Assembly: GCA_015069695.1 (NCBI GenBank)
Contig: JADCRZ010000015.1
Location: forward strand, 1-64,000
Direction of reading: 5' to 3'
Source of the DNA: Williamsia sp.
GTDB lineage: Bacteria > Bacteroidota > Bacteroidia > Chitinophagales > Chitinophagaceae
Length of the DNA stretch: 64,000 nt
In this document: positions 5,040-20,311 of the stretch, piece by piece
How the letters are laid out: every line of letters begins with the position of its first letter
Numbering within the stretch: the first letter of the stretch is position 1
Notes under the pieces: model-generated
Told to the model about the DNA's origin: nothing
The model's input: only the letters and a program-made list of their open reading frames with translations
The model's database searches: none
Made by a program: the position numbers and the translations under genes

Positions 5040-8000
5040 TCAGCTGGGTTTGTTGTAGGGCAGGGTAAAGTAAAAGACGGAACCTTTATCGGGATGGCTG
5101 CTTAAGCCGATCGTGCCGCCATGGCGCTGAATGATGCCCGCTGTTATGTACAATCCCAAGCCCATACCAGGCAGTGTGTTGGATCTGGCATGCTTTACGC
5201 GGAAGAAACGGGTAAATATTCCCTTTTGCAGGTCTGTGGGAATACCGATCCCCTGGTCTATAACACTTACCTTGATTTCTTTTTCCCCTGCTTCACAGAC
5301 AATCGTAACATCTCCGCCCTCAGGTGAGTATTTTATGGCGTTTGAAATAAGATTGCTGATCACCTGCTCCATTCTTTTTTTATCAGCCTGCACAGAAATG
5401 GTTTGTTCACAGGCGATAACAAGCCTGTGTTTCCGCGACAGTTGCTGCAGTTCTTCCACCAGTTCCCTGATCAGGTCGCTCAGGTTGAACTGTTCATACT
5501 CCAATGCAAGCTGGCCTTCGGTAAGTTTTGATGTGTCCAGCAGGTCACTGATCAGGTTATTCAGCCGGTTCACCTGTGCATTCATTTTCTGGATAAGTGA
5601 TGCACTTTGTTTGTCATTATTTTCTTCAAATGTTGCCTGCAGCAGTTCTCCGTATGCCTTTACGCTGGTAACCGGTGTTTTTAATTCGTGACTGGCAATG
5701 CTCAGGAAATCTTCTTTCTGCTGCTCCAGCTTTTTGCGTTCAGTAATATCGAACATTACACCTACCATGCGGGTGGCCCGGGTTTCATCCCATTCTATTG
5801 CATGTCCGAAGCCGCTCATCCAGCGCATTTCATGGTCATCAGCACGTATAATACGGAATTCAGCCTTGTATACACCGCTGATTGCAATGGCTTCTTCCAG
5901 GGCTTTTTTTACTCTTTCTTTGTCACCAGGATATATGATCTGAAGAAAGTAGGCGCCATTCTTTTCATCCCCGTTGGGTTCCAGGCCCAGCAAGGTATGG
6001 TGCTGCCAGTTCCATACAACCCGGTCTTCTTTGATGTTCCAGTCCCAGGAAGCCATTTCTGCAGATTGCAAAGCCACCCGGTTTCGTTCTTCCAATACCT
6101 TCAACAGCTCCTCTGCCTGTTTCTGCTCGGTCATATCACGGGCAACCTTTACATAACCTGACAGCTTTCCATCGTAAACAGGTGTTAGTACGCCACTCGT
6201 ATAAAACCGGGAACCATCCTTTCTGATGTGCCAGCGTTCATCCGGTGCTCGCCCTTCTGTATAGGCCATCGCTCTTTCTTTCTGCGGCGCATTGTCTCTC
6301 CTGTCTTCAGGCGTAAAGATCATTTCGTCAGATTGTCCGATTGCTTCTTCTTTCGTATATCCAAACATCCGTTCTGCACCGCTGCTCCAGCCCTGGATAA
6401 TGCCCTCCGTGTTGATGTTGATGATGGCATAATCGACGGCACTGTCCATGGTTATGCGCAAACGTTCTTCCGATGTACGCAGGGCTTCTTCTGTATTGGC
6501 CCTTTCGATAGCAGCCCAGGTCCGTTCAGCCGTTTCGCTGGCAAGATCAATTTCTGTTTTCGTCCATTTTCTCGGTGTGCTTTGGGTTAAGCAAAACCTG
6601 CCTACCTGTTGCTGTTCCTTTATTACAGGGATATTTATGTAAGAGACAATGCCAGCTGAAATACAAAGCTGCTTCAGGTGATCATCCATTTCTTCCGATA
6701 CATGCACGTCTTCAACAACAATCGGCTGAGCCGTTTTCAGCACGGTATTAAACAAAGGAAGATCCTGCAGGGAATAAGTATTTGCAATAGAGCTTAAACC
6801 TTCCCTGTATGCATCGCGGCGGATGATGGCCTTATCTTGTGCTATCTCACAGTAATAACACCGCTCAACCTGGAAGTGATTCATTACTTCCAGGGCTACG
6901 ACACCCTGTATCTCTACGGGATTGGCTATCAACCTGAGCGAATCATCTAACCTGGCCAGAAATGCCTGGCGCATTTCTGCGATCTTACGCCCGGTGATGT
7001 TGTTGTAAACGGCGATTACCCGGTGACTGCCTTTGCCGCCAACGCGGGATATATAGATGTTGAACCAACTGTTGAGCGCAACGATAAAGTATTCATTCCG
7101 CTCGGGTGTTCCGGTTTTGGCAACACGTCCGTACGCTTCAAACCAGTGTTTTTCCAGGTCCGGAAAGAGCTGGCCGACGCGCTGGCCCACGATGGCACTG
7201 CTCAGGCCGGTTTGCCGGAGCAGGGCCGGATTGTGGTCGACATAAATAAAATCAACCACTTCTTCTGCTTCGTTAAAAATGAGTTCCAGTGTAACAACGC
7301 CTTCCTCCATGGAATTGAACAGGGTCCGGAATTTTTCTTCGGACATGGCCAACGCCTCTTCTGCCCTGGCTCTTTCCACAGCTGCCCAGGTGCGTTCAGC
7401 TACTTCCTCTACCAGGTCAATTTCATTTTGTTTCCATTGCCTTGGTATGGTATTGTGAACGGCCAAAGTGGCCACCCATTCCCGGTTCTTTACCAGGGGC
7501 ACGGCTATATATGCGCCCATCTGTGCTGACGCAAGTACGCCGCGTACAGTTTCGGAAATAGGGGGGTCAGTTGCCGTGTTATAACTTACCTGCGTTTTTC
7601 CGGCGCGGTATCCTTCCACCAGCCGTTCTCCAAAATCATGGTGGGGGAACTTTCCTGTGAGGGGCGGAACTCCGTTTCCATAACTGTAAGAGATATATAC
7701 ATATTCTCCGATTACCTCGTCATAATGTGCTTGGTTTACTTTCAGGTGTTCACCCAGTAGGTCTGCAGAAAAAGCTTGTATGCCTATGGGGTCGTCCAGT
7801 GAGCGGAGCCCGTCACTCAGCTTGAGCAGAAATGCCTGTCGCTGCTCTGCTTGCTTGCGCGCGGTAATGTCTGCGTAAACAATTACAAACTGCCGGCTTT
7901 GTTCTTCCCCGAACGGAGATGCATAAAAATTAAACCAGCGGTCGAGTTCTTCCACCCTGTTTTCAAATCGGACCGATTCCCGCTTCAAGGCAACCGTTGC

Positions 8001-11000
8001 ATAGGTCTCTATCCACCAGTCTTCGATGGTGGGCACTACTTCCCTGGCTGTTCTGCCTTTTGCCTGTTCAACGGTGATCCCTGTCATTTTTTCAAAAGCG
8101 GGATTTAATTCAAGCATCCGGTAATCAACGGGCTTGCCTTGTTCATCGGTGATCATTTCACACAATACAAATGCTTCATCGATGGAATTGAACAGTACAT
8201 AAAATTTATCAGTTGCTTTTTGGGCGAGCCTGTCTTTCAGGTCCAGCAGTTCCAGGTCTGCTTTTTTGATGTCGGTGATGTCTCTGGCGATCGCCAGCAC
8301 GGTTTCTACTTCACCGGCCGCATTTTTTTCCGGCGTGAGGCGCGAATAAAAATAAACTTCTCCGGCAGGAGTGGGAAAAGAATTAACATGTTCGACCGTT
8401 TCGCCGGTCTCAAACGTTCTTTGCAGGCTGTTCATGTAAGGGATGGCGATCTCATCCGGCTGCCCCATCTCGCGGTTTGTTTTGCCGAGCTGGGATTGAT
8501 TGCTTGAACCTGTTTTGCCTTCAAAGGCAGCGTTCGCAAAAACAAGCTTTAGTTCCCTGTTCCATCGCGTAATTACATCCGATGTATTCTCTACCAGGGA
8601 GAGGTATTGATCCCTGCTTTCTTTCAGTTCTTTTGTGCGTTGCTCTACTTCCTGCTCCAGTTGAATGCGGTGGTTTTCTTCTGCGGTCCGCAACGCTTCT
8701 TCTGCCTGCTTGCGTTCTGAAATGTCAACAAAGGTGATTACAACCCCTTTGATGCGGTCTTCGTCGGTCCGGTAGGGTGTCAGGCGCAACAGGTAAATCT
8801 TTCCTTCCCTTGTACGCACTTCCCTTTCTATGATGTTGAGCTTTTCGAGTACGGTTTCTGCATCGCTTAATATATCTGCATATTCCAGCCGGTGGGTGAT
8901 GTCGGAAAGCGGGCGGCTGATGTCGGCAGGGATCAGGTTGAAAATAGAACCTGCAGCAGGTGTGTACAGCACGATCCGGAAAATTCTGTCCAGGAAGATC
9001 GTGCCGATGTCTGTAGAGTAGATCAGGTTTTGCAGGTTGTTGCTGACATGGCTGGTTTCTTCTACTTTTACTTTGAGCTCCTGGTTGACTGTGTGCAGTT
9101 CCTCGTTGATGGATTGCAGTTCTTCCTTGCTGGTTTCCAGTTCTTCTGTTGTTGAGCGCAGTTCTTCATTGGCCGACAGCAATTCTTCGTTGGCTGCTTT
9201 CATTTCCTCTGCCTGGAAATCATGCTGTTCATTGGCAGCCCGCAGCTGGGCTTTTGCGCGTACCAGTTGTTCCTCCAATTGCCTGGCCATCGGTTCTTCA
9301 GCAGATGATAACACGACTCCCTGGCTGCTGGTCTCTGCAGCAGGCTCAAATACGATCAGGATAAATCCTTTTGCCTGATCGCCATCACGCAAAACCGGAC
9401 GCACATGAATATTGACCGTTTGGATTTTGTTGTCAATCTTTACATGCACGCCTTTTGCTTCCACGGCTGATTGCCGCTGCACGGCCTGGTAGAGGGCCGA
9501 TCTGAGTTCGAGCCTTAGTTCCGGCTTTATCAGCTTTAACAGATTCTGGGAGGGTTCACCGCCGCCTACTTGCAGGTAATTCCCGGCCCGTTCACTCAGG
9601 TGCACAATCTCGTACTCTTCATTTACAATGAGGGAAGGCGGCGCATACTCCTCCAGCATCTGGTGATGCAGGTCGCCGAAAGAAGTACGTTCCTGTGTTT
9701 TGTTCTCCTGATCGCGCGAGGACGAATCTCTTTTGGCGGCTCCTGAATAAAGGGGCGGCAACAACAACTGGGGCAGGGAATAAATATGCCGGCTGATATG
9801 CCTGCTTTGAAAGATATGATTCTCCCGGCTGTACGCCGAATACAAATCACTGGCACCGTCTACGGATTCGGAAGAACCCAGAAAAAGATAGCCACCGGGC
9901 TTTAACGCAAAATGGAAGGTTTCGATCACTTTTTCCTGTGCCACCCCGTTCAGGTAAATCAACACATTGCGGCAGGTAACCATGTCGAGATGGGAGAAGG
10001 GAGAGTCCTTTAAAAAATTGTGCTGCGCAAACAAGATGGTTTCCCTGATCTCTCTCCTGATGCGGAAATGCTCGCCTTCCTTGTTAAAAAAGCGGCGCAG
10101 TCTTTCCGCTGATACATCGGCCGTGTCGTTGAGGGTATACAGCCCTTCCCTTGCATGCGCTACCGCCGATTCATCAATGTCGGTCGCAAATATCTGCACC
10201 TTGGGTGCATCAATGGTACTCATTGTTCTTTCTGCACAGAGCATGGCAATGGAGTAGGCTTCTTCTCCGGTGGCGCACCCGGCAACCCATATTCTTACTT
10301 TGTCTGCGTTTGTCTTGGCCTGAAAGATGAGGGGCAGCAATTCCTGCTCAACCATTTCAAACGCTTTTTTATCGCGGAAGAAATTGGTAACGGAAATCAG
10401 CAGGTCTTTGAGCAAAGCGCCTGTTTCTTCTGTATGCTCCTGTAAAAACCGGGCATAGGCCGGTAGATCCGGCAGATTGTGTATATTGACCCGCCTTTCT
10501 ATGCGGCGCAGGAGTGTAGGGCGTTTGTAGTTGGAAAAGTCGTGACCGGTCCGAACCCGCAGCAGCGTAAATATTTCACGGAGTGCATGCTGCTGTTCTT
10601 CCGGTCTTTTTTCGGCGTCTTCTACAATTTCAACAGTACCCAGGCTGTCCTTGTAAGCAATGATTTTTGCAGGTATTTCTGCTACAGGCAGTACCTCGTC
10701 AACCATTTCAGTAGCAATTGAGTTGCGGGGCATTTCGCTGAACTGGGCCTCCCGGGGGTTTTGTACGATGCCTACACCCCCTCTTTCTTTCACCCTTTTC
10801 AGGCCCATGGAGCCATTGGCTCCTGTACCCGACAAGATCACGGCCACTGTTCTGGGCCCATGCTGGTCTGCCAGTGTGCGGAGGAACAGATCTACGGGGG
10901 CCCGGCGTTCTTCTGTAGATAAATTGGCTGAAACAGCAATAGACTCCCGCTCTATGGTAAGGTGTTGGTTGGGGGGAACAACATAAACATGGTTTGGAAG

Positions 11001-12937: not shown

Positions 12938-13630
12938 TTAGTTCCTGATGAGCTTCACAACGGGGTCTATCAGTTTCCGGGAGGCAGTGGAATCAAGGTG
13001 CAAGCCATCCGGTGTCATGGCATTGATGTCCAGTTGCGGTGTTGCCCATCCGTTTACAAAGAGGCAGTTGTTTTGTTTGGCCACCTTTTCAAAGGCTGTG
13101 CTCATGTCCTGCACCCGTTTGTCGCCGCCGGCATATTTTTCAGTAGAGATGGCCTTTGCGCCATAGGGAGGTGGTGCAATCACAATGATCTTTGCCCTGC
13201 TGATGGAAGAGTAAGGACAGTTCCTGATTGTCTTGATAAGTCGATCCAGGTTCTGCGGCACTTCATGCTGCCGGCCGGCAAATACGGCTTTGGCATCGTT
13301 GGTACCCAGCTGCAGTACGATAAAATCAAAAGGCCGCTCTTTGGCATTGGCAGCTGCCTTCCGGAGGTTTTCATCAATGACCAGCAGCGAGTTCAGGGTG
13401 CTGTCGCCATTGTTCACAAAACCGATCGTTCTGCCTGATTTGCTGATATTGAATACACGGGTATTGGGCAGGGCCCATTTAAACTGCTGTGGCCAGCTCC
13501 AGGGAAAGGTGCCGTTGCTGTCGCCAAGGGTAAAGATGTTGATCGTATCCGCCCCGGCTTTGGTTTGTGCAGGGAGCGTAAAGGGGAGCAAGAACAGGCA
13601 TCCGCAAATGGCTGAAAAGACAATTTTCAT
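12938..13630 (-). CDS. SGNH/GDSL-type secreted hydrolase (probable carbohydrate esterase)
   Basis: A 230-residue SGNH hydrolase with a signal peptide (cleavage near LPAQ). Block I is GDSN with nucleophile Ser38, block III is LGTND with Asn111, block V is DGLHLD with Asp207 and His210. The single-domain form of about 200 residues resembles arylesterase/thioesterase I-like and acetyl-xylan or rhamnogalacturonan acetylesterase-like proteins. Position just upstream of a GH28 gene suggests removal of acetyl groups from pectin, which is inference. An inverted repeat lies about 20 bases upstream of the start. Confidence 0.85.
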   Translation of the reverse strand: MKIVFSAICGCLFLLPFTLPAQTKAGADTINIFTLGDSNGTFPWSWPQQFKWALPNTRVFNISKSGRTIGFVNNGDSTLNSLLVIDENLRKAAANAKERPFDFIVLQLGTNDAKAVFAGRQHEVPQNLDRLIKTIRNCPYSSISRAKIIVIAPPPYGAKAISTEKYAGGDKRVQDMSTAFEKVAKQNNCLFVNGWATPQLDINAMTPDGLHLDSTASRKLIDPVVKLIRN

Positions 13631-13670: not shown

Positions 13671-13854
13671 TTGTCCGGCACTGTGGGGCAGCCGGCCGGG
13701 GTGGAATGGCCTCAACCCTTGCTTCCTGCAGCAACCTGGCTGAGTGCCAGCCTTTTTCTCCCCTGGCACTTTCTTTGAATAGCAAACATATTTGATAAGC
13801 TTTTCCGCTGCATACAATATCTTAGCAGTTCCAAGGCTGCCGACTTATAGAAAA

Positions 13855-14223
13855 TTGAAGAAGTTTACAACCATATCGCTGCTGGTAATTATCTTCTTGC
13901 AAACGTTCAGTCAGTTTGTGATCCAGGCAGAATACCTGATCAACAGGGGTTATATAGCCAGGGTGCTTTGTATTAACAAAGACAAGCCCGTTATGCATTG
14001 CAATGGTAAATGCTATCTGGCCAGGAAGCTTATGGAACAGGAAAAGCAGGAACAACAGGCCCCTCTTCCCAAAAAGGAAAAGTTTGAAGTGCAGCCCTGC
14101 TTTTTACCCAACCAGCTTAGCTTTACAAGCGAGCTTCTACTCAACGAGGCAGCATATCCTTTCCTGGATGAACCCATCTGTTCATCTCCTCTCAGCGCTC
14201 CTTTTCATCCACCTTCCGTTTAG
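13855..14223 (+). CDS. Small membrane-anchored protein with Met/His/Cys (MHCNGKC) motif
   Basis: A 122-residue protein if translation starts at the TTG at 13855, which gives MKKFTTISLL..., the usual start of this Bacteroidota family. An ATG at 13792 in the same frame would add 21 unusual residues and overlaps a CATATTTG promoter-like box. Residues 5-23 form a transmembrane or signal segment. The conserved core holds Cys39, then Met47-His48-Cys49 and Cys53, followed by a Lys/Glu/Gln-rich stretch. Thiol, imidazole and thioether ligands close together suggest metal binding, possibly Cu(I). It is the first gene of an apparent three-gene operon with a TonB receptor and a Cys-rich lipoprotein. Function is unproven; start choice is moderately sure. 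Confidence 0.7.
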   Translation: MKKFTTISLLVIIFLQTFSQFVIQAEYLINRGYIARVLCINKDKPVMHCNGKCYLARKLMEQEKQEQQAPLPKKEKFEVQPCFLPNQLSFTSELLLNEAAYPFLDEPICSSPLSAPFHPPSV

Positions 14224-14297
14224 ACATGCAGGCAACGGATCAAGACACATCTCCGTATCTCACGAAGATGATTTTATCATGCACTAAATGGTAGGAT

Positions 14298-16583
14298 ATG
14301 AACAAGCCCTTGTGCTTTATGGCAGGATTGTGTATGGCAATGAACTGTGTATATGCGCAGGTAGCCATCAAAGGAAAAGTGATTGATGCGACTACGAACC
14401 AGCCTGTTGCCGGTGCAACGGTAACAGGTGTAAACACCCCATCAAATACCATCACTGACAAGCGTGGAAATTTCACGCTCAACCTCTCTTCTCCGCAGGA
14501 TAGCATCCGGTTAACATCAGCCGGCTATACCACCAAAAGCCTGGCCGCATCAGGTCAGGAATTCTTTATTTTACTTTCTCCCTCCTTTGCCAACCTGAAC
14601 GAAATTGTTGTAACAGGTGGCCGGGAGGGGCAAAGACGGACAGAAGTTCCGGTAGCCATCCAGGTTATTTCCAGAACGGCAATCAATGATACCAAGGCCA
14701 CGCGGCTGGATATGCTGATCAACAAGGTGCCCGGTGCTTACATGGTAGACCTGGGCAATGAACAGCACAGCATGGCAGTGCGGCAGCCCATCGGAACAAA
14801 AAATCTTTTTCTGTATCTTGAAGATGGGATACCCATCAGAACAGTCGGCGATTTTAACCACAATGCCCTGATCGAGATCAACCAGGCATCCATGGACCGG
14901 ATCGAAGTCGTCAAAGGACCCGCCTCTTCGCTCTATGGCAGCGAAGCTGTTGGCGGCGCAATTAATTTTATCACGCAATCACCCACCCCTTTTCTCTCCG
15001 GAAAAATACAGGCAGAAGCGGGCAGCAGGGGATATAAGCGGACTGATTTTGCGGTGAGCAATACATTCAAGAAGCTGGGAATTTTTGCAGGCGGCTATTA
15101 TGCCGATCAAAACCAACCTCAGCAGGAACACAACAATTTCAGCAAGACAGCGCTGACCCTCCGGGCAGATTACAGCTTCAATGACAAGCTCAGGCTTTCA
15201 GCGGTGGCTGATTGGATCGCCTATCAAACAGACCAGAAAGGTGGTCTGGACAGTGCCCATTTCTATCGAAAAGATTATGTGAGCTTTTACCGCTTTACCT
15301 ACCGGAAAGTAGATGCGTTCCGGCTAAGAAGCACCCTGAGCAAGGAATGGAGCGAAAACAACAAAACCAGTCTGACCTTTTTTTACCGCCACTCCACCAT
15401 CGGACAAAACCCTTTTTACTCGATCAGCAATATTGCAGCAAATCCCCTCAAGGCAAAGGGCCAGATCAACGAAGATGCATTCAGGAGCTGGGGCGCTGTG
15501 TTGCAGCATACAACCAAGTTTCAATCGATCGATGCCAAGCTGATCACAGGGCTGAGTCTGGATTTTAGTCCGGCAACCTATGAGGCACAGTTGATCGACA
15601 TTGACCGGAATGCAGGCAATGTTTATTACAACTACACAGTAAAAGATAGCCTGCTGACCAGCTACCAGGTTGATCTCCTGAACACAGCAGCCTACGCGCA
15701 GTTTGAGTACAAGCCCGCCAAGCAGTTGAAATTGGTGGCAGCGGCGCGGTACGACCGGCTTGACTATCAGTTCGACAATCATTTGCCGCCGAGTGCATTT
15801 ACTGGCGCCCCTGATGCAACGGACCATTTTGACCATTTTACACCCAAGCTGGGACTTACCTATGATTTTGGAAGCGGCAAAGGCGTGTATGTAAACTACA
15901 GCGTTGGCTTTGCGCCACCCAACATAACAGACCTGTACACAGGCGTAAAAGTACCTGTTTTAAAAGCTTCTTCCTACAACAATTGGGAAGCAGGCGGATG
16001 GGTTTCTTTTGCCGCAAACAAGGGTTATGCAGAAGTGTCCCTGTACAAGCTGGATGGAGAAAATGAGATTGTGAGCGTGCGGCTGGCAGACGGTTCCTAT
16101 CAAAACCAGAATGCCGGAAAAACAAGTCACAAAGGCATAGAGGCAACGGTCAAATATGCACCCGTGGAAGACATCAACATCCGGCTGGCAGGCTCTTATG
16201 CAGAACACAAGTATATCAGCTACATCGAGCAGGGCAAAGATTATTCGGGCCGCACGATGGCGCAGGCACCTCCTTTTATTTACAACGGCGAGCTTACCTG
16301 TAAGCCGCACTTTATAAAAGGCTTCAGGATAGCCCTTGAAGTACAGGGAATGAACAAATACTATACGGACCCGCAGAATACGGCAACCTACAAAGGCTTT
16401 GCCGTCTTCAATGCCCGTGCAGGTTACACCTTTAAAGGATTTGAACTCTGGACGAACTGTTTAAACGTGACCGATAAAGTATTTGCGACCACTGTTGAAA
16501 AGTCTGCTTTTGGTACTTCGTACCGCCCGGGTCAGCTAAGGACCATCAACGTTGGATTGGCATACAACTTCAGAAATCAATAA
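14298..16583 (+). CDS. TonB-dependent outer-membrane receptor (non-SusC)
   Basis: A 761-residue TonB-dependent receptor with a signal peptide (MNKPLCFMAGLCMAMNCVYAQ), a carboxypeptidase-regulatory-like domain (about 23-95), a plug domain (EIVVTGGREGQRRTEVPVAI through IEVVKGPASSLYGSEAVGG) and a 22-strand-type barrel ending in Phe-Arg-Asn-Gln. Its length is typical of siderophore, metal or vitamin receptors and short for SusC; no SusD follows. It lies 74 bases after the MHCNGKC protein and 46 bases before a Cys-rich BNR lipoprotein. That context points to a small ligand such as a metal complex, not a glycan. The substrate is not readable from the sequence. Confidence 0.9.
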   Translation: MNKPLCFMAGLCMAMNCVYAQVAIKGKVIDATTNQPVAGATVTGVNTPSNTITDKRGNFTLNLSSPQDSIRLTSAGYTTKSLAASGQEFFILLSPSFANLNEIVVTGGREGQRRTEVPVAIQVISRTAINDTKATRLDMLINKVPGAYMVDLGNEQHSMAVRQPIGTKNLFLYLEDGIPIRTVGDFNHNALIEINQASMDRIEVVKGPASSLYGSEAVGGAINFITQSPTPFLSGKIQAEAGSRGYKRTDFAVSNTFKKLGIFAGGYYADQNQPQQEHNNFSKTALTLRADYSFNDKLRLSAVADWIAYQTDQKGGLDSAHFYRKDYVSFYRFTYRKVDAFRLRSTLSKEWSENNKTSLTFFYRHSTIGQNPFYSISNIAANPLKAKGQINEDAFRSWGAVLQHTTKFQSIDAKLITGLSLDFSPATYEAQLIDIDRNAGNVYYNYTVKDSLLTSYQVDLLNTAAYAQFEYKPAKQLKLVAAARYDRLDYQFDNHLPPSAFTGAPDATDHFDHFTPKLGLTYDFGSGKGVYVNYSVGFAPPNITDLYTGVKVPVLKASSYNNWEAGGWVSFAANKGYAEVSLYKLDGENEIVSVRLADGSYQNQNAGKTSHKGIEATVKYAPVEDINIRLAGSYAEHKYISYIEQGKDYSGRTMAQAPPFIYNGELTCKPHFIKGFRIALEVQGMNKYYTDPQNTATYKGFAVFNARAGYTFKGFELWTNCLNVTDKVFATTVEKSAFGTSYRPGQLRTINVGLAYNFRNQ

Positions 16584-16629
16584 ACTCCAAAACGGCAGCG
16601 TGAAAGGCTGTTCCTTTAAAAATAGTTAC

Positions 16630-17853
16630 ATGAAAAGGTCATCACCTATATTCTTTCTTGCATTTGTATTTTTCTGTTCCTGCAAGCCGGTGGAAAAAGA
16701 ACCGGGCATCACGGCATCGGCGGAAACAGCGGTTGATACATCCGCCGCTTCCTGCCCTTACTTGACAAAAGACCCGCAGAACAGGGTTGTTCTAAGCTAT
16801 GTCCGGCAGTCGGCCGGAACAGCACCTGTTTTTTGTTATGCAGTATCAGGGGATGAAGGAAGCAGTTTTGGCAAGCCGGTAGAGATACCGGGCAGCAACA
16901 AGGTGCAGCCGCATGGCGAGAATGGCCCTAAAATTATTTTCAAACCCTCCGGTGAGATCATCGCGGCATGGGGTGCTGCCAATCCGAATCCAAAAAATAA
17001 ATACTCCGGACTGGTTTATTACAGCCAGTCGTTTGATGAAGGACATACCTGGACAAAGCCCAGAAGTCTTACCACAGACACCGCCAGCTTCGACCAGCGT
17101 TATTTTGATATGGCGATTCTTCCGAACGGGGAAGCAGGGATCGTTTGGCTCGACAACAGAAAGCAATGGAAGGGAGAGGGGTCGGGTTTGTATTATGCTG
17201 AAACCAGCGGCAGGCAAGGGTTTGAAGGGGAAAGGCTGATCAGTGGTCCTTGCTGCCAGTGCTGCAGAACAGATTTGTTTATAGACGCAAAGAAAAAGAT
17301 CCATGTTTTATACCGGGCCATCCTGAACGATACCATCAGGGATATGGTTCATATTGTTTCGACGGATGATGGAAAACAATTTACAAAGCCCCAGCGGATC
17401 AGCAATGACGACTGGGTGATGAATGGCTGTCCGCATACGGGGCCGGCCATGACCGAGAACAAGGCCGGCATTCATTTTACCTGGTTCACGGGCGGCGGCG
17501 GTTCCGGTATTTATTACAACAACTCAAAGGACGGCGGAAAAACGTTCACCAGCAGAGACACCGTGAGCGGAAAAGCATCCAAGCACTGCCAGATCACGGC
17601 CTTGCCGGATGACCGCATCCTGATCGTATGGAATGAAAGCTTTGCAAATGGCAACCAGTATGCAAGCAGGATCGGGATTGAAGAGCGCGATGCTGCCGGT
17701 CATACCACGTTAAAAAATTATATTACAGGTGAGAAAAGCAATTCATCTTTCCCCGTGATTTGTCCGGTCAGTACCGGCAAAGCCGTTGTTGCGTACACCG
17801 AAAATATCAACGATCAGGAGCACGTGTTGCTTAAGCAGGTAATGATCCAGTAA
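16630..17853 (+). CDS. Sialidase-fold (BNR/Asp-box) lipoprotein with CCQCC motif
   Basis: A 407-residue lipoprotein; the lipobox FFCSC gives Cys18 as the lipidated residue. Several Asp-box-like repeats (for example SFDEGHTWTKP at about 134-144, STDDGKQFTKP at about 244-254, SKDGGKTFTSR at about 299-309) indicate a six-bladed propeller of the sialidase superfamily. The Arg triad and Tyr/Glu pair of true sialidases are not obvious, so enzymatic activity is doubtful. The striking part is Cys208-Cys209-Gln-Cys211-Cys212, with further Cys267-Pro-His and His319-Cys320. I chose ATG 16630, after the receptor stop, because it gives the lipobox; an in-frame ATG at 16552 lies inside the receptor gene. 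Automatic pipelines would call it exo-alpha-sialidase; I think a metal-binding or receptor-partner role is more likely. Confidence 0.78.
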   Translation: MKRSSPIFFLAFVFFCSCKPVEKEPGITASAETAVDTSAASCPYLTKDPQNRVVLSYVRQSAGTAPVFCYAVSGDEGSSFGKPVEIPGSNKVQPHGENGPKIIFKPSGEIIAAWGAANPNPKNKYSGLVYYSQSFDEGHTWTKPRSLTTDTASFDQRYFDMAILPNGEAGIVWLDNRKQWKGEGSGLYYAETSGRQGFEGERLISGPCCQCCRTDLFIDAKKKIHVLYRAILNDTIRDMVHIVSTDDGKQFTKPQRISNDDWVMNGCPHTGPAMTENKAGIHFTWFTGGGGSGIYYNNSKDGGKTFTSRDTVSGKASKHCQITALPDDRILIVWNESFANGNQYASRIGIEERDAAGHTTLKNYITGEKSNSSFPVICPVSTGKAVVAYTENINDQEHVLLKQVMIQ

Positions 17854-18037: not shown

Positions 18038-20311
18038 ATGCGCCCTTCTTTAAAACTGGTCCACTCTGTGCTGCTCATTTTGTTCTCTGTAAGCAGCTTG
18101 ATGGTTTACGCACAAACCCGTATCCATGGCATCTATATCGTGAATGCCCAAACCAGGGTGCCCGTGCAGGATGCATTTGTGCAAAGCGATGACAGGCTAT
18201 TCAATGCGGAAGCAGATGAGAACGGTTTTGTAAGCCTCAAAGACCTTCCGCTCAACATTTCCACCCTGTCAGTGAGCCGGATTGGCTTTGAAACAAAACT
18301 GATCGATTTGGCTGAATTGTCTGCTACGGATCACACGGCCATAATTTACCTGCAGGCCAAGGTTTCCAGTCTCCGGGAAGTGCAGGTAAAAGCCATTGCT
18401 TCCAAAGGTGTTTTTAAAACCATCAGTGATCTGGATATTCACCTGCGGCCTATCAACAACTCGCAGGAAGTGTTGCGGATGGTTCCGGGCCTGTTTATCG
18501 GACAGCATGCCGGCGGTGGCAAAGCAGAACAGATCTTTCTGCGCGGGTTTGATCTAGACCATGGTACGGACATCCATATTTCTGCCGATGGCATTCCGGT
18601 GAACATGGTAAGTCATGCCCACGGCCAGGGTTATGCGGATCTGCATTTTGTGATCCCCGAACTGATTGACCGCGTGAACTTCAACAAGGGGCCTTATTTT
18701 GCCGACAAAGGCAATTTTACGACGGCCGGCTTTGTCGAATTTAAGACCAAGGATTACCTGGAGAATAATTTCGCAAAAGTAGAAGGCGGACAGTACAATA
18801 CCTTTAGAACCATTGCCGGTGTTAACCTGCTGAAACCGGCGGCAGACCGGAGAAACCAAAGCCTTTATTTTGCAGGGGAGGCATCGTACACGGATGGCTA
18901 TTTTAAAAACCCGCAGGATTTTACCCGCTACAATGGGGTGTTGAAATACCATGGCAGCATCAGCAGCCACAGTACGCTCACCGCCAGCTTAACCGGGTTT
19001 GCCAGCAAATGGAATGCGTCCGGACAAATACCCGACAGGGCTGTCCAAACCGGCCTGGTTGATTTCTATGGGGCCGTCGACAGCACCGAAGGAGGCAAAA
19101 CATCCAGGTACAACGCCAACCTGGAGCTCCTGACCAATCTGCCTGACGGGGGCACTATCCGCAACCAGGTTTACTACAGCCGGTACCAATTCGAGCTCTA
19201 CTCGAACTTTACCTTTTACAAGGAAGACCCCCTGAATGGGGACCAGATCCGTCAGCGGGAACGCAGAAACCTGGCCGGCTACAATGGTGCTTATCAAAAA
19301 ACTTTCGCTATCGGCAGCATACCCGCTGAAACGCGCGCGGGTATTCAGTTGCGGTATGATGACATCAACAACATCGAACTCACCAGAACAAAAGACCGGG
19401 TTCTCAACACGGCTGGTCTTATGTTGGGCGACATCAATGAACTCAACCTGGCGGCCTACGGATCGCAACGCCTCTCGCTTACAAACAAGCTGGACCTGAC
19501 CGCGGCCTTGCGGGCAGATTATTTTTCCAACCGCTACCATGATAAACTGGCCTCCCAGGTATTGTCAACCAATGCGGCCATTGTAAGTCCGAAACTAAAC
19601 TTCACGTACAAGGCCAACGACAGGCTGCAACTTTACCTGTACAACGGAAGGGGTTTTCACAGCAACGATACAAGGGTGGCGGTTCTGCAGAGCGGAAAGA
19701 AGGTGCTGCCGCCGGCTTATGGCTCTGATTTGGGCGGCATCTTTAAACTGGGTAAAAAGCTGCTTTTTCAATCTGCCATCTGGTATCTCTGGCTCGACCA
19801 GGAGTTTGTGTATGTGGGCGATGAAGGGGTAGTAGAGGCAGGCGGAAAAACCAGGAGGTACGGATTTGATTTTTCGATCCGGTATGAGCTGGCAAAAAAC
19901 CTGTTTGCCGATGCGGACTTAAGTCTGGCCAACCCCCGGGCGACCGGTGTTGAAAAGTCGGCCAGCTATCTCCCCCTGGCACCGCGTCTTACGAGTGTTG
20001 GCGGACTTACATACCGGCAGGAACAGGGCTGGAACGGCAGTGTGCGTTACCGGTATATGGCGGACAGGCCCGCCAATGAAGACAATGCTGTAGTGGCAAA
20101 AGGCTATTTTGTAACGGATGCGGCCCTCAACTACACAAAGAAAAAATGGGAGACCGGCATTGCTATCCAAAACCTGTTCAACACCAAATGGAAAGAAACC
20201 CAGTTCGATACCGAAAGCCGGTTGAAGAATGAACCAGCCCCCGTTTCAGAGATCCACTTCACCGCCGGGACGCCCTTTTTTGCAAGAGCAAGCTTTACCC
20301 TGTTTTTCTGA
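18038..20311 (+). CDS. TonB-dependent receptor with His-rich plug loop
   Basis: A 757-residue receptor with signal peptide ending near LMVYAQ, a carboxypeptidase-regulatory-like domain (about 27-110), a plug and a barrel ending in FTLFF. The plug carries a characteristic RGFDLDHGTD segment followed by VSHAHGQGYADLHF (about 188-202), a His-rich loop shared by a distinct receptor subfamily found in several phyla. No SusD, sigma factor or FecR is adjacent, and the next gene is 398 bases away, so it seems monocistronic. The His-rich loop makes a metal or metal complex a plausible substrate, but this is inference. Confidence 0.87.
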   Translation: MRPSLKLVHSVLLILFSVSSLMVYAQTRIHGIYIVNAQTRVPVQDAFVQSDDRLFNAEADENGFVSLKDLPLNISTLSVSRIGFETKLIDLAELSATDHTAIIYLQAKVSSLREVQVKAIASKGVFKTISDLDIHLRPINNSQEVLRMVPGLFIGQHAGGGKAEQIFLRGFDLDHGTDIHISADGIPVNMVSHAHGQGYADLHFVIPELIDRVNFNKGPYFADKGNFTTAGFVEFKTKDYLENNFAKVEGGQYNTFRTIAGVNLLKPAADRRNQSLYFAGEASYTDGYFKNPQDFTRYNGVLKYHGSISSHSTLTASLTGFASKWNASGQIPDRAVQTGLVDFYGAVDSTEGGKTSRYNANLELLTNLPDGGTIRNQVYYSRYQFELYSNFTFYKEDPLNGDQIRQRERRNLAGYNGAYQKTFAIGSIPAETRAGIQLRYDDINNIELTRTKDRVLNTAGLMLGDINELNLAAYGSQRLSLTNKLDLTAALRADYFSNRYHDKLASQVLSTNAAIVSPKLNFTYKANDRLQLYLYNGRGFHSNDTRVAVLQSGKKVLPPAYGSDLGGIFKLGKKLLFQSAIWYLWLDQEFVYVGDEGVVEAGGKTRRYGFDFSIRYELAKNLFADADLSLANPRATGVEKSASYLPLAPRLTSVGGLTYRQEQGWNGSVRYRYMADRPANEDNAVVAKGYFVTDAALNYTKKKWETGIAIQNLFNTKWKETQFDTESRLKNEPAPVSEIHFTAGTPFFARASFTLFF

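Follow-up and report, generated by a model that had tools for sequence, protein, structure and literature searches.

What three adjacent genes do together in a 64,000-nt stretch of DNA from Williamsia sp. is the question raised by the locus analyzed here; the stretch, referred to as the window, comprises positions 1–64,000 of the forward strand of contig JADCRZ010000015.1 (assembly GCA_015069695.1). The genes encode a small Cys-containing protein, a TonB-dependent receptor, and a β-propeller lipoprotein, and an original prediction had read them together as an uptake or handling system for a soft metal, with copper as a first guess. Our analysis suggests that they form a copper acquisition operon under a nascent-chain copper switch resembling CruR of Bordetella pertussis, a reading to which we assign a probability of about 0.6. 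The most telling feature is one on which that prediction did not remark, i.e. an FHPP motif next to the stop codon of the small protein. The three genes are:

13855–14223, + strand: small protein, candidate copper-sensing leader peptide (122 residues; N-terminal hydrophobic segment, C-x9-C-x3-C, variable linker, C-terminal FHPPSV)
14298–16583, + strand: TonB-dependent receptor (761 residues; carboxypeptidase-like N-domain, plug, and barrel by Pfam)
16630–17853, + strand: β-propeller lipoprotein with BNR/Asp-box-like repeats (407 residues; Pfam BNR_2, E = 1.2e-10)

The predicted tight order was confirmed, with all three genes on the + strand and gaps of 74 nt between the small gene and the receptor gene and 46 nt between the receptor and lipoprotein genes. 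Because the upstream gene (12938–13630) is on the opposite strand, the small gene is the first of the operon. Its start is most likely TTG 13855; a mechanical open reading frame (ORF) call from TTG 13792 exceeds the length of the small-protein homologues. A terminator-like hairpin with a T run is present on the + strand at 13736–13760, about 100 nt before this start, and a σ70 promoter scan, the model of which does not cover Bacteroidota promoters, gave 6 hits against a shuffle mean of 5.3.

Profile searches employed a class-level sample of 295 genomes from 156 genera, in which a first search found the lipoprotein or distant relatives of it in 22 genomes (E ≤ 1e-10). Scanning of a lipoprotein alignment against GTDB genome contigs confirmed 211 relatives, the best 80 of which are the named loci used below, often from Chitinophaga, Pontibacter, Rufibacter, Flavobacterium, Niastella, and Segetibacter. 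The co-occurrence of the families in other genomes was borne out: a small gene lies upstream of the lipoprotein gene on the same strand in 63 of the 70 named loci having at least 3.5 kb upstream, and a receptor of the same similarity cluster is found in 74/80. The order small protein, receptor, lipoprotein is observed in the window and in eight further loci (L029, L030, and L032–L037 with none skipped; 5–18 kb stretches), and L058 and L059 have the lipoprotein gene directly behind the small gene, with no receptor between, and then that of a YHS-domain protein (Pfam assignment for L058). The three genes are thus real, adjacent, and conserved as a unit.

Two motifs of the small protein, encoded at the following positions, carry the argument for its role:

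13969–14013, + strand: Cys motif codons C39-x9-C49-x3-C53, putative metal site of the leader
14203–14214, + strand: FHPP codons F117–P120, putative arrest motif, two residues before the stop

Sixty-six small proteins were collected from the named loci by their Cys pattern and not by their tail, after removal of ORFs longer than 300 residues and of two chance hits (L072 1001 and L090 966); a small-gene profile used in place of the Cys pattern gave 67 of the named loci. A second set of 60 loci, one each from 60 other class genomes, was hand-picked, not randomly, among the listed matches of 161 genomes to spread over families, and together with the window protein the two sets make up 127 distinct leaders. 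C-x9-C-x3-C is present in 127/127, with nine residues separating the first two Cys residues in all, and C39, C49, G51, and C53 are invariant in 43/43 aligned small proteins. Of the "MHCNGKC" cluster in the original prediction, the Cys residues stand, as part of this longer motif with its downstream Pro-Pro, but the His is not invariant in the alignment.

Pro-Pro is located 2–8 residues from the stop in 127/127 leaders (66/66 from named loci, 60/60 from the second set). The tails of the 66 comprise 61 FHPP, 3 FRPP (L051 included), 1 FQPP, and 1 YHPP, and those of the pooled leaders 97 FHPP, 14 FRPP, 5 FQPP, 5 YHPP, 2 LRPP, and 4 others, with RAPP in none. An ending in HPP plus up to six residues is found in 62/66 small proteins versus 0/895 other mechanically called ORFs of the same 80 loci, 8 of which have PP within six residues of the end. 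The distance from the third Cys to the first Pro is 63–75 residues in the 127 leaders (median 66, SD 1.9), and mean pairwise identity (4,000 sampled pairs, minus those with a Cys-core identity of at least 80%) falls from 88.1% in the tail to 49.7% in the Cys core and 9.8% in the intervening linker. A nascent-chain ruler would be expected to show just this: a linker of unconserved sequence whose length between the two fixed motifs is kept. Since each of the two prolines is encoded by all four Pro codons across the family, the constraint acts on the protein. The Cys conservation, the fixed spacing, and the proline-pair ending suggest that the small protein senses copper while still on the ribosome.

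The small-protein profile matches 161/295 class genomes and 91/156 genera (E ≤ 1e-3), with a single copy in the window's own genome. Pfam assigns the window protein to zero families, NCBIfam yields one match at chance level (E = 0.16), and any single model of either database matches at most 2 of 43 members (E ≤ 1). HYC_CC_PP, an NCBIfam name considered as that of a possible relative, was dropped on finding no such NCBIfam match for the 43 members, and a literature search found no paper linking HYC_CC_PP or FHPP with copper. An AxA-like site, in a pattern-based look for Sec signals, occurs in 24/127 leaders. In L162, L167, L183, L196, L197, and L202 several leaders are found within a few kb, each heading its own genes.

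The genes that follow the leader were counted in runs of at most five same-strand genes behind it, with Pfam applied to one representative per cluster (two for an outer-membrane-like cluster, one of them unmatched). In 58/60 second-set loci the next gene is on the same strand, at a median gap of 100 nt. The runs contain an outer-membrane-like protein with CGC or Met/His motifs (29/60), MbnP (PF20243; 23/60, or 24 loci counting either strand), CCP_MauG (17/60), a YtkA-type lipoprotein (11/60), a second receptor type (11/60), a receptor of the cluster nearest to that of the window (11/60), PepSY_TM (4/60), YHS (2/60), and SCO1 (1/60), and six hold none of the recurring families. Four loci are ordered leader, TonB receptor, PepSY_TM. 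The guess of a soft metal, and of copper in particular, gains from these contexts, 39 of the 60 leader-headed runs containing at least one relative of MbnP, CCP_MauG, PepSY_TM, YtkA, YHS, or SCO1; it is not helped by the window's own neighbors, among which there are no copper genes. Copper is thus supported by the genomic context of the leader homologues.

Alternatively, the small protein might act in its finished form alongside the receptor and lipoprotein, as a conventional copper chaperone or assembly factor anchored in the membrane. The conserved Cys triad, the hydrophobic N terminus, and the stable co-occurrence of the genes would all fit such a protein, but a near-random yet length-fixed linker, Pro-Pro always 2–8 residues from the stop, and a position ahead of very different gene sets, some without a receptor, do not, and we consider this alternative doubtful. 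The original prediction, too, gave the small protein a direct part in metal handling. The fixed Cys–Pro-Pro spacing over an unconserved linker, the stop-proximal Pro-Pro, and the first place before different gene sets point instead to a regulatory leader.

A second alternative, which we regard as unlikely, keeps the leader but changes its ligand: the imported substrate that it senses would be another metal or metal complex (iron, zinc, or an arsenic-type metalloid), or a cofactor such as pyrroloquinoline quinone (PQQ). Among PDB entries the receptor matches PqqU/YncD best (E = 1.5e-41), PqqU being a PQQ transporter; a distant CxCC propeller (L046) lies beside a Cys-rich methyltransferase; and the CutF study connects His-only CutF-like leaders with Ni/Co genes (PMC9973294). 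Set against these, the families behind the leader are copper linked as a set (SCO1, PepSY_TM, MbnP, YHS) and, for PQQ, the receptor scores 90 bits on the NCBIfam PqqU equivalog model, far below its cut-off of 1200; no NCBIfam model listed for the three proteins reaches its cut-off. The receptor, the AlphaFold2 model of which has a mean pLDDT of 84.6, contains Met and His residues that are invariant in alignments (M149, H157, M159, H188, H611, H637, M654), and its homology does not fix the ligand. L046 is on contig C157 of the window's own genome, with the propeller and methyltransferase genes at 8330–9382 and 7450–8286, and we take the methyltransferase to resemble arsenite methyltransferases. 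Its neighborhood hints at another metal or metalloid for some propellers, and for the propeller family at large we therefore prefer "soft metal" to "copper". Two further distant CxCC propellers, L042 and L045, speak for copper by their context, being found near a multicopper oxidase, P-type ATPases with heavy-metal-binding domains, and a thioredoxin-like protein.

That the small protein is the precursor of a copper-binding natural product of the bufferin or methanobactin type, imported by the receptor, is very improbable. It is small, contains Cys, and precedes a TonB receptor, and relatives of MbnP and CCP_MauG occur in some runs; against this, no obvious modifying-enzyme family is found among the scanned representatives of the largest downstream clusters of the 60 loci, and conservation is confined to two separate regions, the Cys core and the extreme C terminus, with a random linker between them.

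The third gene would by itself suggest a sialidase. The AlphaFold2 model of the lipoprotein is a confident all-β structure (mean pLDDT 90.5), and its nearest solved folds by Foldseek are a Dyadobacter protein of unknown function (5hx0), sialidases, and Photorhabdus lectins (query TM-scores 0.43–0.61 among the top 50). The residues that stand out are encoded at:

16753–16755, + strand: C42 codon (invariant in 34/34 close relatives)
17254–17265, + strand: C209-Q-C211-C212 codons, CxCC, putative metal site (CxCC in 80/80 lipoproteins)
17428–17436, + strand: C267-P268-H269 codons, second part of the putative metal site (CPH-x-G in 79/80)

C42, C209, C211, C212, C267, H269, and H319 are invariant in the 34 aligned lipoproteins. 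The "CCQCC" run of the original prediction accordingly reduces to CxCC (C209, C211, and C212 in 34/34), C208 not being invariant; the CPH pair was right, with C267, P268, and H269 all invariant; and of the "HC" pair H319 is retained but C320 is present in only 5/34. Distant propellers retain CxCC and CP.

The FRIP motif carries the first catalytic arginine of sialidases. A preserved sialidase catalytic site, which would have refuted the original prediction, was not borne out for this motif: it is present in the first 120 residues of 0/80 lipoproteins, and a FRIP-like R-x-P occurs anywhere in 2/80. A GH33 sialidase assignment was rejected on this absence, with CxCC in 80/80, while 1–4 Asp-box matches per protein in 80/80 and the propeller fold are present; the lipoprotein is thus probably not a sialidase, because the arginine motif is absent. 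A sugar-importing operon with a sialidase as its lipoprotein, to which the BNR_2 match and the sialidase-like fold would lend themselves, is hardly credible given FRIP in 0/80 and a best profile match to a solved sialidase sequence of E = 0.048.

Starting from the gene order, the conservation of motifs and spacing, the metal-gene contexts, and the missing sialidase arginine motif, we infer arrest, the direction of the response, copper binding, surface location, and transport as follows for a CruR-like copper switch. The leader would be inserted co-translationally through its N-terminal hydrophobic segment. About 65 residues reach from the peptidyl-transfer center to beyond the translocon; with the ribosome at FHPP, the Cys triad, some 66 residues from the peptidyl-transfer site, would have left the tunnel and be close to the translocon or past it. 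Under copper scarcity the ribosome would pause at FHPP and cover the leader 3′ end, which would prevent a stem with the receptor start from closing and/or deny access to Rho, and both downstream proteins would be produced. Copper on the Cys triad would release the pause and shut the operon. The receptor would bring a copper complex across the outer membrane, and the adjacent CxCC/CPH propeller would capture or pass on the metal, in the way BtuG serves BtuB and XusB serves XusA.

The stem invoked in this proposal corresponds to a predicted pairing:

14201–14306, + strand: predicted RNA pairing of the leader 3′ end and stop codon (14201–14230) with the stretch before and over the receptor start (14280–14306)

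In the window fold the codons around the stop are predicted to pair with bases just upstream of the receptor ATG. Across the family, the stretch running from the PP codons into the gap folds more stably (mean z −1.78 for the 66 and −2.36 for the 60) than control gaps (−0.80; 150 of the 198 control gene pairs). Expected pairs between the stop region and the next start average 7.55 in the 98 leaders with gaps of 30–150 nt versus 3.34 in the 198 gene pairs and 3.03 in shuffled gaps, the value for the window and its receptor start being 15.2. The leader 3′ end also has an excess of C over G (0.134 versus −0.022 in 798 control ORFs; 0.208 in the window). This C>G bubble, a possible sign of Rho dependence, does not serve as main evidence and is given little weight because amino-acid composition explains most of it.

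Several observations weigh against a CruR-like copper switch in the window. The arrest at FHPP is putative, and for CutF stalling was not detectable in the LepB assay run by its authors (PMC9973294). The main text of the CutF study does not mention an HPP ending (nor MbnP or PepSY), and "HPP" is absent from the main text of a 2024 arrest-peptide survey and a 2025 RAPP/RGPP survey. The RNA evidence is uneven: the window fold (14150–14330; z = −1.42) is not significant alone, the predicted leader folds are heterogeneous with no conserved structure, and the observed C>G value of 0.154 is close to the 0.135 expected from amino acids and local codon use (66 members, mean z 0.56). A hydrophobic segment above the cut-off precedes the Cys motif in 104 of the 127 leaders, not in all, and these leaders are related sequences and not independent events. 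The small gene is missing upstream in 7/70 loci (L057, L062, L074, L099, L113, L116, L126), and in the leader-less L099, L113, and L116 a receptor and propeller are accompanied by a second receptor. The copper receptor CrtA (9RVQ/9RVX) is a weaker match of the window receptor (E = 6.2e-28) than is PqqU/YncD, its nearest solved relative. The window has no copper genes among its own neighbors. MbnP is common anyway, being present in 218/295 class genomes, so it is its position behind the leader that counts. An association that by itself favors the switch, the leader being found in 0/13 genomes without a COX1 hit versus 161/282 with one (Fisher p = 2.5e-5), is confounded by lineage, with some of the 13 genomes, which were compared by eye with the leader match list, being incomplete.

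Other genes around the operon were recorded as separate observations. In the window a second TonB receptor gene of another type (18038–20311, same strand) is located 184 nt downstream; in the loci inspected it is not a conserved neighbor of the three-gene unit. Large TonB receptor genes lie behind the receptor–propeller pair in L099 (9315–11930), L113 (9275–11896), and L116 (9224–11842); that of L099, the only one scanned, has an N-terminal HMA-like stretch under the Pfam cut-off. A recurrent family is encoded upstream of the operon in 5/80 loci (L049 3902–4720, L051 4124–4942, L054 3665–4486, L055 3825–4643, L066 530–1501); its L051 member has no Pfam match, L032 10313–11281 is similar by eye, and in four of the five loci it adjoins a protein of one cluster, the L051 member of which carries an HMA domain. 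Related pairs of small HigB/HigA-like (toxin–antitoxin) genes, recognized by eye, are located upstream of the operon in L029 (3279–4067) and L032 (5246–6042), in genomes of different families; chance or shared mobility are possible reasons, and we judge them coincidental.

We give even odds to a broader proposal, in which Bacteroidota possess a widespread copper-sensing arrest-leader family of their own, with homology to DUF2946 undetectable, one leader type heads several copper-acquisition modules, and the CxCC propeller is a copper-capturing partner of the BtuG/XusB kind. The spacing of about 66 residues between the Cys triad and the stop-proximal FHPP would then let copper be sensed at the point where the nascent chain emerges from the ribosome–translocon. 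The modules under the leader would be receptor with CxCC propeller; receptor with PepSY reductase; MbnP, CCP_MauG, and outer-membrane protein; YtkA-like lipoprotein with receptor; and YHS/SCO1. Outer-membrane copper import is poorly known, and a literature search found no paper on an outer-membrane copper importer in Bacteroidota. The leader occurs in over half of the 295 sampled class genomes and, if the proposal is true, would be a common copper switch for the phylum. It would name candidate copper-regulon genes without expression data and make the roles of orphan families testable (MbnP, CCP_MauG partners, sialidase-like CxCC propellers). The fixed spacer makes the mechanism itself directly testable.

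The comparison with known systems begins with CruR (DUF2946), which heads the operon cruR-bfrG/crtA-bp2921/crpH in B. pertussis (PMC9426467, PMC12914433, PMC13038864). CruR has more than 2000 homologues, in which the spacing between CXXC and RAPP is kept within one or two residues; it controls its operon post-transcriptionally with Rho, with high expression in the absence of copper, and its arrest was demonstrated in vitro in later work. Like CruR, the window leader is a small, putatively exported protein encoded first of three genes and before a TonB receptor, with a Cys motif and, at a fixed spacing, a PP-type motif near the stop (the CruR tail is three residues from the end), and the order leader, receptor, PepSY_TM in four Bacteroidota loci is that of Bordetella cruR-crtA-crpH. 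In contrast to CruR, it has C-x9-C-x3-C rather than CXXC, FHPP rather than RAPP, and about 65 rather than 45 residues between the motifs, and the third gene in the window encodes a CxCC propeller, not PepSY_TM. Membership of DUF2946 (PF11162) was rejected, the window protein having no match, no CXXC, and no RAPP. PF11162 is over the cut-off in 2/198 class genomes, in neither at the leader position, and has no match over the cut-off in the window's genome. Two Bacteroidota DUF2946-like proteins, L221 (over the PF11162 cut-off) and L223 (under it), have CxxC and RGPP near the end, from which CruR-type and FHPP leaders seem to coexist in the class.

CutF of Rhodobacter capsulatus combines a CxxxC motif with a C terminus rich in Pro; an RNA stem covers the start of the next gene, and CutF raises expression when copper is present (PMC9973294). 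Its authors' survey (list D) contains 5,334 CutF-like proteins, of which Bacteroidota contribute 19%, and names TonB-like proteins among the frequent neighbors, so the general idea of such leaders in Bacteroidota is already in print. The survey defines CutF-like proteins by CxxxC, PP within 15 residues of the C terminus, fewer than 150 residues, and a same-strand neighbor (PMC9973294); the window protein has CNGKC, FHPPSV, 122 residues, and a 74-nt gap to a same-strand gene, and list D may include members of the FHPP family. The likeness to CutF lies in CxxxC with a C-terminal Pro-Pro, short structured intergenic RNA, and copper genes downstream, the difference in the window cargo, which suggests expression under copper scarcity. 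The 2025 RAPP/RGPP survey states that it found no Cu-linked leaders in Bacteroidota, which a lineage-specific motif such as FHPP would explain.

The cargo has parallels of its own. BtuB-BtuG and XusA-XusB of Bacteroides, with vitamin B12 and ferric siderophores as ligands (PMC6143338, PMC13142918), likewise pair a TonB receptor with a β-propeller surface lipoprotein, theirs capturing the ligand, and XusC is a PepSY protein, as encoded in some leader-headed runs. Unlike BtuG and XusB, the window propeller has CxCC and CPH, and a surface-export signal is not evident in its family (2/63 lipobox-positive proteins have at least two acidic residues at positions 3–6 from the lipid Cys). As with the MbnP/MbnH pair of methanobactin operons (PMC3621798), relatives of MbnP and CCP_MauG occur together in the data, often in second and third place behind the leader, but no methanobactin biosynthesis genes were recognized, and the window operon is without MbnP and CCP_MauG. 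Nascent copper sensors have so far been studied in Proteobacteria (CruR, CutF); what is new in the candidate sensor described here is another ending, a longer spacer, and no detectable homology to DUF2946.

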